From Myxococcales bacterium (GTDB lineage: Bacteria > Myxococcota_A > Polyangia > GCA-2747355): DNA of 53,750 bases. The notes below the pieces were generated by a model. The model made no database searches. It had not been told where the DNA came from and saw nothing but the letters and a program-made list of their open reading frames with translations. Position 1 is the stretch's first letter. Every line of letters begins with the position of its first letter. Location: the NCBI GenBank assembly GCA_020431405.1, contig JAGQIK010000686.1:1-53750 (forward strand), given 5' to 3'. The translations under genes and the position numbers were made by a program. Shown here one piece after another: positions 19,642 to 22,913 of the stretch.

Positions 19642-20118
19642 TTGGGATCGCTACAGGCACAGGTGCAGCCGGGGGCGCAGAGCCAGCCGACCCGGGTGAT
19701 TCTCAGCGGCGCCATCGACGAGCGCTGCGAGCTGGATGAGGCCCTCGGCGGTCTCGCCGAGTCGGAGCCCATCGAGCTCGACCTCGCCGGCATCTCGCGC
19801 ATCAACTCCATCGGTGTCATGCGCTGGATTCCGGCGCTCGAGGCGCTCTGCAAGGGGCGCGACGTGCGCGTGGTGCGCGCCTCTTACGTCGTGATCAATC
19901 AAGCCAACAGCGTGGCCAACTTCTTCGCCGACGCCCAGGTGCGCTCCTGTCTGGTGCCGTACTTCTGCCCCGCGTGCGGGGACAACAAGATGCTCGAGAT
20001 CGAGGTCGACGAGGTGCGTGCCGCTGGGTGTTCGGCGCCGGCACGGCGCTGCGACAGTGATGACGCGCAGCTCGAGTTCGACGAGCTCGACTCGTACTTC
20101 ACCTTCGCGCGCGAATGA
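19642..20118 (+). CDS. STAS-domain protein (anti-anti-sigma type) with Cys-rich tail
   Basis: 158 aa from a TTG start, with GGAGG about six bases upstream. Residues 15-110 look like a STAS domain: V-I-L-S-G-A-I-D-E beta strand, then I-S-R-I-N-S-I-G-V, in which Ser56 aligns with the phosphorylated Ser of SpoIIAA/RsbV. The C-terminus has C-P-A-C-G (about 114-118) and further cysteines, perhaps a small zinc site, and an acidic end. It overlaps the next gene by 4 bp (ATGA). The neighbour ends in an RsbW-like ATPase domain, so a partner-switch pair is the natural reading: the ATPase domain would bind or phosphorylate this STAS protein. No sigma factor gene is adjacent. Confidence 0.75.
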   Translation: MGSLQAQVQPGAQSQPTRVILSGAIDERCELDEALGGLAESEPIELDLAGISRINSIGVMRWIPALEALCKGRDVRVVRASYVVINQANSVANFFADAQVRSCLVPYFCPACGDNKMLEIEVDEVRAAGCSAPARRCDSDDAQLEFDELDSYFTFARE

Positions 20119-22913
20119 CGATGGGCGGCGAGACGCGCGATCCTCGTCGCGCCGTGGCCGTGCTCGATATCGGCGGCGGCGGGCGACAGCTCGTCGACGC
20201 GGTCGTCACCGCGGATCTCGACACGCTCGAGGTGCGCTCTCTCGACGAGCTCATCGCGGTTGTTGCCGAGGGCAAGGCGCGCGTGGCGCTCGTCGCGTTC
20301 GAGGCGCTGTGGCCGCAGAGCCAGCAGAACTTGGTGCGACTGCGCGAGGCCAGCGGCAGCAAGACCTGCCGCCTAGTGGTGGCCTATCCGCGCGAGCGTC
20401 CGCGACTTCGCTTGGGGCGCAAGCTGTGGTCTGTCGGGCTGATCGACCACCTGGTGGCGCGCGCCGATCCGCCGCGTCACGTGGCTGCGCTGCTGAGGCA
20501 ATCGCTCGCCGACGTGGTCGCCGACGAAGCGCCCGCGCCAGACACGCCGCTCGGCGTCGCGCACCGGTTGTGCGGTGCGCTGACCAACCGCGGCAGCGTC
20601 GAGGCGCTGCTGCGCGAGCTGGCGCTGCGTTTGGCCAAGATGCTGCCGCTGCGCGCGATCCAAGTGCTCGTCGTGCCGGGCGGCGCCAAGCTCTACATCT
20701 TCCAGACCTGCGCGGTCGATCACGAGGTGCGCCTCGAGATGGCGCGTCGCGTCTGCGACGCGGTCTCGCCGCTGGCGCGTGAAGGTCTCGCCCCAGAAGA
20801 CCTCGTCTTCGTCGACTCGCCGCCGATCGTGTTCGAGGGGCAGGCTTCTGCTGCGCCAGTCGAGCTCGAGGCCAACGATGACACGGTGCTGACCTGTCCG
20901 CTGGTGCACTCCGGCGACCTCGTCGGCTGCGTCGGTCTGCTGCTCGACGACGCCGCGCTCTCCACCGAGCAGCGCCTCGCGCTGCGCGTGGTGATGCTGC
21001 AGCTGGCCACCAGCATCCGCTACGCCGACGCCATGCGCGTCGCCGAGCGCAACTCGCACATCGACGAGCTCACCGGTGTGGCCAACCGGCGCTTCATGAG
21101 CCGCACGCTGACCGTCGAGTGGCGGCGCGCGCGCCGCTACGGCCACCCGCTGACGGTGGCGCTGCTCGACGTCGATCGTATGGGCGAGATCAACGAGACG
21201 CGCGGCTACACCGTGGGCGACGCGGTGCTGCGACGGCTCGCTACGCTGTTGCGCCAGTCGGTGCGCGACACCGATCACGTGATCCGCTATGGCGGCGACC
21301 AGCTGATGGTGCTGCTGCCCGAGACGGGCCCTGGCGAGGCGGTGCTGGTGCTCGAGCGTTTCACGCAGATGCTGCGCGCGCGGCCGCTCGAGGTGCCCGT
21401 GCGCGACGTGCAGGCGACCGCAGGGGGCTCGGCGTCGGCGGCGGTCGCGTCGATCTCGCTCTCGCTCTCCACCGGCGTCGCCGGCATTCCGCTCAGCCGC
21501 GTGCGCTTCGCCGAGGAGCTGGCGGACCTCGCCGAGCAGGCGCTCGCGGTGGCCAAGCGCGGCGGTCGCGGGCGCATCTGCTTGGCGCATCGCAGCGGCG
21601 TCGAGTCGATCGCGGGCAGCATCGAGCGACCCGAAAAGCGCCGCTCGCCGCGCGTGGGCTCGACCATCGGTGTGCGCTACCTCGAGCTCGCCGACTTCGG
21701 CGGCCGCGCGCTCGAGGCGCAGTCGAGCGACATCTCCGCCGGTGGCATCGCGATCCGCTCCACCGGACAACTGCTGCGCCGCCACTCGTTCGGTCTGGTG
21801 TTCCTCGAGGGCAGCGATCGGCCGGTGCTCTCGCAGGTGGTCTGGACGCGCGACGTGCAGCGCGACGCTGGCGCCGAAGGCGAGCGCCACGCGGGCCTGC
21901 GCTTTATCCGCGGCGAGGAGCTGTCGGGCATCGTCGCGCGCGGCGAGGCGCATCGCGCGCCCGGGGAGCGACTGCCGCGAGCGCTGGTCGTGGCCGAGCA
22001 CGCGCGCACCAACAGCATGGCGCGGCGCGTGCTCACCGCGGCGCGCTACAGCGCCGACTTCTACAGCATCGAGGACGCGCTCGAGGCCATCGAGCATCAC
22101 GAATACGACGTGGTTGTCATCGGCGAGTCGCTGCTCGCCTCGCGAGGATTCGACCTCGTGCGCGAGACCACCGAGCGCGGCGGACGGGTCGTGCTGGTCA
22201 ACGAGCACGCCGATCGCAGCGCCGCTCTCGAGCAGGCGCGCCGCAGCCGCATCGAGCACTTCGTCGGCTACGACGCCAGCTCGGAGGAGGCGCTCTTCGC
22301 GACCCTCAACAAGCTCGTGCTCGGCGAGTACTTCGGCCTGCGCAAGTACCTCTCGTGGGGCAGCGAGCCGCTGAGCTGGCCGGTGGACGGCGCGCCGAGC
22401 AAAGACCGCGTGCTCGATGGCATCCGTGCGCTGGCCAAGGAGGTCTGCTGCCACCCGCGCATCACGGATCTTCTGATCTCGGCCGTCGACGAGATGATCG
22501 TCAACGCGCTCTACCACGACGCCGACACCGCCAAGCTCGAAGAGGCGACGCTGCGTCCGGTCACCGTCGAGGCCGGCTCGGACGGCCGTTTCCTCGCGGT
22601 GGCGGTGCTCGACGAGCATGGCACGTTCAGGCCAGACCAGCTCTTCGCCAGCCTCGGCCGCGCCGTCGACCGCGAGCGCTACGGTCTCCCGAGCGACGCC
22701 AGCAGCGCCAGCCTCGGCTTCCGTATCATGCTCGGCGCGCTCAGCCAGCTCGCGATCAACGTCGAGGCTGGTCGGCGCACGGAGATCATCGGCATCGTCG
22801 ACCTGCGCAAGTCGCTGCGCGAGTATCGATCCTCAGTGCCCAGCTTCGGCATCTTCGAGCGCCCGGGGCAGCTCTCCGGCGGCACGCCGAGGGGGAAAGA
22901 AGCGAAGAAGTAG
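20115..22913 (+). CDS. Multidomain signalling protein: pseudo-REC, GAF, degenerate GGDEF, PilZ, pseudo-REC, RsbW-like ATPase
   Basis: 932 aa, soluble. About 12-135: receiver-like fold without the phospho-Asp. About 145-305: GAF-like. About 310-490: GGDEF domain whose active site reads G-G-D-Q-L (393-397, the catalytic Glu replaced by Gln), while the inhibitory site R384-x-x-D387 sits exactly five residues before it. About 506-600: PilZ with both c-di-GMP motifs, R509-x3-R513 and D539-I-S-A-G-G. About 620-740: second receiver-like fold, again without an obvious phospho-Asp. About 765-905: GHKL/HATPase of RsbW type, with D792-E-x3-N797-A and D833-E-H-G in place of DxGxG. It is more likely a c-di-GMP receiver than a synthase, passing the signal to its ATPase domain and the coupled STAS partner. 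Confidence 0.85.
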   Translation: MTMGGETRDPRRAVAVLDIGGGGRQLVDAVVTADLDTLEVRSLDELIAVVAEGKARVALVAFEALWPQSQQNLVRLREASGSKTCRLVVAYPRERPRLRLGRKLWSVGLIDHLVARADPPRHVAALLRQSLADVVADEAPAPDTPLGVAHRLCGALTNRGSVEALLRELALRLAKMLPLRAIQVLVVPGGAKLYIFQTCAVDHEVRLEMARRVCDAVSPLAREGLAPEDLVFVDSPPIVFEGQASAAPVELEANDDTVLTCPLVHSGDLVGCVGLLLDDAALSTEQRLALRVVMLQLATSIRYADAMRVAERNSHIDELTGVANRRFMSRTLTVEWRRARRYGHPLTVALLDVDRMGEINETRGYTVGDAVLRRLATLLRQSVRDTDHVIRYGGDQLMVLLPETGPGEAVLVLERFTQMLRARPLEVPVRDVQATAGGSASAAVASISLSLSTGVAGIPLSRVRFAEELADLAEQALAVAKRGGRGRICLAHRSGVESIAGSIERPEKRRSPRVGSTIGVRYLELADFGGRALEAQSSDISAGGIAIRSTGQLLRRHSFGLVFLEGSDRPVLSQVVWTRDVQRDAGAEGERHAGLRFIRGEELSGIVARGEAHRAPGERLPRALVVAEHARTNSMARRVLTAARYSADFYSIEDALEAIEHHEYDVVVIGESLLASRGFDLVRETTERGGRVVLVNEHADRSAALEQARRSRIEHFVGYDASSEEALFATLNKLVLGEYFGLRKYLSWGSEPLSWPVDGAPSKDRVLDGIRALAKEVCCHPRITDLLISAVDEMIVNALYHDADTAKLEEATLRPVTVEAGSDGRFLAVAVLDEHGTFRPDQLFASLGRAVDRERYGLPSDASSASLGFRIMLGALSQLAINVEAGRRTEIIGIVDLRKSLREYRSSVPSFGIFERPGQLSGGTPRGKEAKK

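Follow-up and report, generated by a model that had tools for sequence, protein, structure and literature searches.

Can the second messenger cyclic di-guanosine monophosphate (c-di-GMP) be read directly by the kinase side of a partner switch? The question is raised by two overlapping genes on one strand of a 53,750-nucleotide stretch of DNA from a Myxococcales bacterium (contig JAGQIK010000686.1; the whole stretch is referred to below as the window). The upstream gene encodes a STAS protein of 158 amino acids (aa), and the downstream gene a 932-aa protein in which a pseudo-receiver (REC1), GAF, GGDEF and PilZ domains and a second pseudo-receiver (REC2) are joined to a Bergerat (GHKL) ATPase domain. 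A first-pass annotation, made from the sequence alone, had proposed that this polypeptide couples two c-di-GMP binding sites to an RsbW-like kinase, so that c-di-GMP would set the phosphorylation or sequestration of the STAS protein. Our best explanation, held with about even confidence, is likewise that the two proteins form a partner switch whose kinase side contains a c-di-GMP sensor.

Both open reading frames (ORFs) lie where they had been placed, have the lengths claimed and share a 4-bp overlap (ATGA). Because Pfam is weak for the receiver, HATPase_c_2 and STAS domains (sub-threshold matches at E 0.008 and 0.009 in the 932-aa protein and, for STAS_2, at E 0.07 in the 158-aa protein), these domains were checked through relatives and structural models. 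AlphaFold models the 158-aa protein as a STAS domain (predicted local distance difference test [pLDDT] 95.8) with Ser56 as the first residue of helix 2 (residues 56-70), which is where SpoIIAA and RsbV carry their phosphorylatable Ser or Thr. In Foldseek and VIA-align the solved folds nearest to it belong to anti-sigma-factor antagonists, among them RsbV, SpoIIAA and a Haliangium protein (VIA-align Z 9.6 and 9.1 for the best matches). The serine is retained in 62 of the 64 STAS relatives, and the fusion clade described below has it in all seven members. The protein also has a zinc-ribbon-like C-terminal tail, a feature absent from the first-pass description, to which Pfam zinc-ribbon models match weakly; cysteines occupy positions 109, 112 and 137 in 60, 60 and 61 of the 64 relatives, and at the fourth position 50 of them have Cys where the window protein has Asp140.

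For the other partner, the model of the C-terminal 316 aa shows a receiver and, after it, a Bergerat ATPase (pLDDT 90.6, predicted template modelling score [pTM] 0.88). A search of PDB sequences with a profile of the GHKL part by itself gave weak histidine-kinase matches and nothing better, so a fold search was needed; Foldseek ranked LvrC of Leptospira first (E 8e-10, both domains aligned), with SpoIIAB (E 5e-6, TMt about 0.7) and RsbW (TMt 0.78) among its further matches, which identifies the Bergerat fold of RsbW/SpoIIAB-type kinases. The matches listed by VIA-align for this model were almost solely receivers, and the Bergerat half was judged by Foldseek; in one fusion relative (L109) HATPase_c_2 is above the Pfam cut-off (E 5e-7). 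The N-box Glu-x-x-x-Asn (Glu793, Asn797) is invariant in a 35-row alignment, the columns of Asp833, Gly836 (G1) and Gly868 (second glycine box) are invariant or nearly so, and the N-box Glu and Asn and the G1 Asp are retained in nearly all family members. The GHKL fold with an RsbW-like N-box thus passed the structure-prediction check that the first-pass annotation had named, and its domain order, second pseudo-receiver included, is borne out by Pfam, the models and the fusion relatives; we add that REC2, whose third strand ends in VVVIGES, lacks the phospho-acceptor Asp of an LvrC-type receiver.

In the sensory half, Pfam identifies the GGDEF and PilZ domains above their cut-offs (Table 1), and the motif positions agree with the earlier description. 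An RxxD I-site lies five residues upstream of a degenerate A-site, as in c-di-GMP receptors of the PopA/SgmT type, and the PilZ domain has both RxxxR and [DN]xSxxG; searched against the PDB, the PilZ profile gave weak matches to a type IV fimbriae PilZ protein and to cellulose synthase (E 0.04-0.09). No Pfam match to GAF was found in the window protein itself, and this domain was assigned by relatives. The GGDQL A-site together with PilZ favours reading c-di-GMP over making it, and from these motifs we predict that c-di-GMP is bound by the PilZ domain and probably also by the I-site.

The architecture is not confined to this locus. The check proposed earlier, a search for the same architecture with a STAS neighbour in other Myxococcota, returned four more fusions of the same domain order, each with its own STAS-zinc-ribbon gene directly upstream: L057 and L060, which share a genome from the window's taxonomic order, and L107 and L109 in one groundwater Myxococcales metagenome-assembled genome (MAG). 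Recurrence of the fusion and its upstream STAS gene in four loci is more than chance. Per-domain identity of the four to the window protein is 30-65%, with GHKL the most conserved domain in three of them, and REC1 is 38-49% identical among the fusions; in a tree of 55 GHKL domains the fusions fall in one clade (support 100/100). RxxD and the PilZ RxxxR are present in all five copies and [DN]xSxxG in four (L057 departs), with A-sites that read GGDQL in the window, GADRF in L057, GGDEF in L060, EGAQL in L107 and GGEEF in L109.

Beyond the fusions, REC-GHKL relatives were found in 34 of the 96 genomes searched (that of the window counted), and 39 of 284 genomes from the phylum had STAS-zinc-ribbon proteins; scans against Pfam and NCBIfam returned no model specific to this STAS-zinc-ribbon/pseudo-receiver-Bergerat family. 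Contigs were scanned for GHKL relatives with a profile from a closer three-row alignment, and neighbour genes at the relative loci were called by a heuristic based on GC content at third codon positions (GC3). Both partners lie within 1.5 kb of each other in 17 of the 29 best relative loci, the fusion locus L028/L057 making 18, and in L133 (G003) a single frame is matched from GHKL through STAS. In the window's own genome, L019:3780-6230 and L024:201-3557 each hold a Hanks Ser/Thr kinase (in front, and confirmed by Pfam), GHKL and STAS-zinc-ribbon in one chain. Other family members have PEGA repeats or a 7TM-DISM sensor. Three REC-GHKL proteins with C-terminal PEGA repeats (L018:2393-4558, L062:4853-7468 and L073:41-2236) had no STAS-zinc-ribbon gene in the stretch examined. 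One distant GHKL relative comes from an Oligoflexaceae MAG, so the REC-GHKL family extends beyond Myxococcota; there, the C-terminal ends of tandem 7TM-DISM proteins match the REC-GHKL profile (L111:3246-8240).

In known partner switches, STAS serines are reset by SpoIIE-type phosphatases, and domains of this type stand beside the STAS gene in L114, L115, L116, L118 and L126. The genome of the window has seven SpoIIE genes, three of which have a STAS-zinc-ribbon gene no more than about 1 kb away (P about 1e-6 to 1e-5 if placement were uniform, a rough figure because signalling genes may cluster for other reasons), and in contig C136 of that genome the two open frames overlap on one strand. That the REC-GHKL/STAS-zinc-ribbon pair is a partner switch is well supported by this context. 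One locus, L126:2258-6929, encodes next to REC-GHKL a SpoIIE phosphatase and then a FIST-domain protein with STAS-zinc-ribbon domains at its end. Cyclases are also among the neighbours: five loci (L112-L116, in G256, G176, G277, G168 and G302) have the order REC-GHKL, STAS-zinc-ribbon, diguanylate cyclase with intact GGEEF, followed in L114-L116 by a 1.7-kaa (thousand-amino-acid) Hanks kinase-AAA-GAF-SpoIIE protein, and in L065-L069 a GGDEF protein (GGDEF-EAL by sequence reading) divergently adjoins the pair. GGDEF proteins thus accompany the pair repeatedly, and the window fusion fits this theme.

Table 1. Features of the STAS gene and the fusion gene (window positions)
Feature	Position	Strand	Basis or remark
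STAS-zinc-ribbon protein, 158 aa, Ser56	19642..20118	+	TTG start, GGAGGA in front
Zinc-ribbon-like tail of STAS protein	19966..20061	+	C109, C112, C137; Asp140 at fourth, usually Cys, position
932-aa fusion: pseudo-receiver, GAF, GGDEF, PilZ, pseudo-receiver, Bergerat (GHKL) ATPase	20115..22913	+	ORF, Pfam, model, relatives
N-terminal pseudo-receiver (REC1)	20142..20504	+	Family receiver profile matched in fusion copies L057, L060
GAF domain	20562..21029	+	By relatives: Pfam above cut-off in fusion copies L057 (E 1e-7), L060
GGDEF domain	21045..21584	+	Pfam, residues 314-486, E 7e-31, above curated cut-off
I-site RDTD	21264-21275	+	Residues 384-387, five residues before GGDQL
A-site GGDQL	21291-21305	+	Residues 393-397, degenerate
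PilZ domain	21612..21950	+	Pfam, residues 507-600, E 2e-5, 25.1 bits vs cut-off 22.5
PilZ RxxxR (R509, R513)	21639-21653	+	Alignment
PilZ DxSxxG (D539-I-S-A-G-G)	21729-21746	+	Alignment
Second pseudo-receiver (REC2)	21963..22325	+	Model, alignment; VVVIGES, without phospho-acceptor Asp
Bergerat/GHKL ATPase	22326..22910	+	Model, Foldseek, alignments
N-box DEMIVN	22488-22505	+	E793-MIV-N797
G1 DEHGTF	22611-22628	+	Alignment
G2 SASLGF	22704-22721	+	Alignment

From the architecture, predicted folds, conservation, linkage and family context we infer c-di-GMP binding, phosphotransfer, a direction of signalling and a target, in the following scheme. The Bergerat domain would bind the STAS-zinc-ribbon protein encoded upstream and phosphorylate it, or at least sequester it, via Ser56; c-di-GMP on PilZ, and probably also on the I-site of the catalytically weakened GGDEF domain, would shift the conformation of the protein through REC2; depending on this conformation, the STAS protein would either be bound and phosphorylated or remain free for its target; and an unlinked SpoIIE-type phosphatase would reset Ser56. 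An input of c-di-GMP to the switch is plausible on the domain content. We put forward more tentatively, at a little short of an even chance, that c-di-GMP directly gates a Bergerat partner-switch kinase, with occupancy of PilZ and I-site in one chain deciding whether the STAS protein is phosphorylated or held, and that the window represents a branch of a phylum-wide STAS-zinc-ribbon family with interchangeable inputs (Hanks kinase, 7TM, GGDEF-PilZ). If this is true, a second messenger would feed a partner switch with neither a sensor kinase nor a phosphatase between them.

Several observations weigh against c-di-GMP as the input of a catalytic switch, and they are taken here together with the alternatives on which they bear. 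The signal may flow in reverse, as in SiaABCD, HsbA-HsbD and BgrV-BgrR, with the switch controlling the fused GGDEF domain or another cyclase, c-di-GMP as the output, and I-site and PilZ serving feedback. Two of the five fusions, L060 and L109, retain GGDEF and GGEEF and could synthesize c-di-GMP, and these, with the cyclase operons L112-L116, mean that the switch could control c-di-GMP synthesis instead; the operons together with the SpoIIE protein of L114-L116 comprise the same four parts as SiaABCD, and the divergent GGDEF gene of L065-L069 points the same way. Set against this are the A-sites of the window, L057 and L107, which are probably unable to cyclize GTP, and the PilZ domain, a receiver and not a maker of c-di-GMP, which all five fusions retain. 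We regard reverse flow as unlikely. The first-pass interpretation is partly supported: its domain order, GHKL fold, STAS partner, gene overlap and partner-switch-type family hold, and c-di-GMP binding, kinase activity and the direction of signalling are its less certain parts. Nor is any target, sigma factor or phosphatase adjacent to the pair in the window, which for the sigma factor agrees with what had been noted before.

Catalysis is not a given either, because the G1 and G2 glycines are altered, a change that the first-pass annotation did not mention. The window has neither the DxGxG of G1 nor the full G2 glycines: G1 is Dx[FYHW]GxL throughout the family, and the first G2 glycine is lost in the window clade (SASLGF in the window protein vs GAGLGL in the rest of the family). 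The N-box Asn, moreover, is gone in the fusion L060. We do not class the domain as RsbW, because of these changed glycines; ATP binding and phosphotransfer in the window clade may, to judge from the boxes, be weak or absent, and the domain may also work like RsbW despite them. A pseudokinase could hold and release the STAS protein with an affinity altered by c-di-GMP, Ser56 being modified by another kinase such as a Hanks kinase or an unlinked GHKL paralogue, and the Hanks-kinase-GHKL-STAS chains of the same genome are consistent with this arrangement. A dead domain, however, need not retain Glu793, Asn797 and Asp833, as the window and most of the clade do, and Ser56 is kept throughout the clade; we consider a non-catalytic switch rather unlikely. 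More improbable still is a reading in which the GGDEF and PilZ domains do not bind c-di-GMP and persist as relics or scaffolds, leaving GAF and the pseudo-receivers as the real inputs. The variable A-site and the [DN]xSxxG departure in L057 would suit such relics, as would SgmT, in which GAF is proposed as the main sensor and the I-site as only localizing the protein (PMC3509222); RxxxR and RxxD are kept in every fusion, however, in domains that are 41-56% identical. A point against our main reading is that c-di-GMP changed the localization of SgmT but left its kinase activity in vitro unaltered (PMC3509222). RxxD retention as proof of receptor function was rejected given the baseline in the window's genome, where 20 of 22 other GGDEF rows have this motif (two of them the same segment of one tandem gene): the I-site is therefore not special, and the weakened A-site is (about 4 of 23 rows are non-canonical). 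Finally, the fusion clade has two non-fused pairs, L029 and L108, nested within it, so the Bergerat-STAS pair can exist without c-di-GMP domains.

The other neighbours in the window are a VWA-like protein, a KdsC-like HAD protein and an alpha-2-macroglobulin-like ORF, as read from the ORF list without a family search. At L108:9718-12600, a GGDEF-GAF-sigma54-activator-HTH protein is encoded about 2.8 kb from the non-fused member of the fusion clade.

In the literature on partner switching with c-di-GMP, PilZ, STAS or RsbW, as far as it was covered (subscription journals thinly, which makes this weak evidence), a fusion of an RsbW-type domain to PilZ or GGDEF is not described; what this literature holds are switches that govern a cyclase, plus links between c-di-GMP and anti-sigma factors in Streptomyces. 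Within that coverage no system matches, in keeping with the earlier remark that the fusion was not a described one. In most of the links reported there, as with Sia, Hsb and Bgr, the switch acts on a diguanylate cyclase. With PilZ and a receptor-like GGDEF domain fused to the kinase side, the messenger would stand upstream of the switch, or a loop would be closed, within one purifiable two-protein system, and the wider family, found beside SpoIIE phosphatases and cyclases, constitutes a Myxococcota signalling family that offers testable members of rising complexity.

The nearest relatives in design are the Bacillus pairs RsbW/RsbV and SpoIIAB/SpoIIAA, which share with the window pair the Bergerat fold, the STAS serine at the start of helix 2 and the Glu/Asn N-box, with SpoIIE beside family members; the window pair differs from them in its replaced G1 glycines, the zinc-ribbon tail on STAS, the fused pseudo-receiver and GAF-GGDEF-PilZ domains, and the absence of an adjacent sigma factor. 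LvrC (9qih), an anti-sigma-like REC-Bergerat response regulator of Leptospira crystallized with ADP:Mg (PMC13269768), resembles the C-terminal half in its receiver-then-Bergerat order and is the best whole-model fold match; its canonical receiver is phosphorylated by LvrB on D53, whereas REC2 has no such Asp and its gene is coupled to a STAS gene. In SiaABCD, HptB-HsbR-HsbA-HsbD and BgrSTUWV, partner switching controls a diguanylate cyclase (PMC8457831, PMC5085249); in the first of them, the STAS-like SiaC activates the cyclase SiaD when it is not phosphorylated itself (PMC8457831). These systems, too, bring kinase, STAS-type and GGDEF proteins together, and L114-L116 hold all four kinds of Sia part; the window, unlike them, has GGDEF and PilZ fused to the kinase-like protein, a GGDQL A-site and no adjacent cyclase or phosphatase gene, so that phosphatase, kinase, STAS-type protein and active cyclase are not encoded together there. 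SgmT of Myxococcus xanthus, a kinase with a degenerate A-site that binds c-di-GMP through the I-site of its GGDEF domain (PMC3509222), is like the window protein in combining GAF with such a GGDEF domain in a kinase protein of the same phylum, and PopA of Caulobacter is grouped with it as a degenerate GGDEF receptor (PMC3509222); SgmT, however, is a histidine kinase acting with DigR, whereas the window encodes a partner-switch module with PilZ in addition. In Sorangium cellulosum, STAS domains are fused to eukaryotic-like kinases (PMC2887360). The chains L019 and L024 are of this sort, with GHKL between kinase and STAS, and the window pair has c-di-GMP domains in place of the Hanks kinase.

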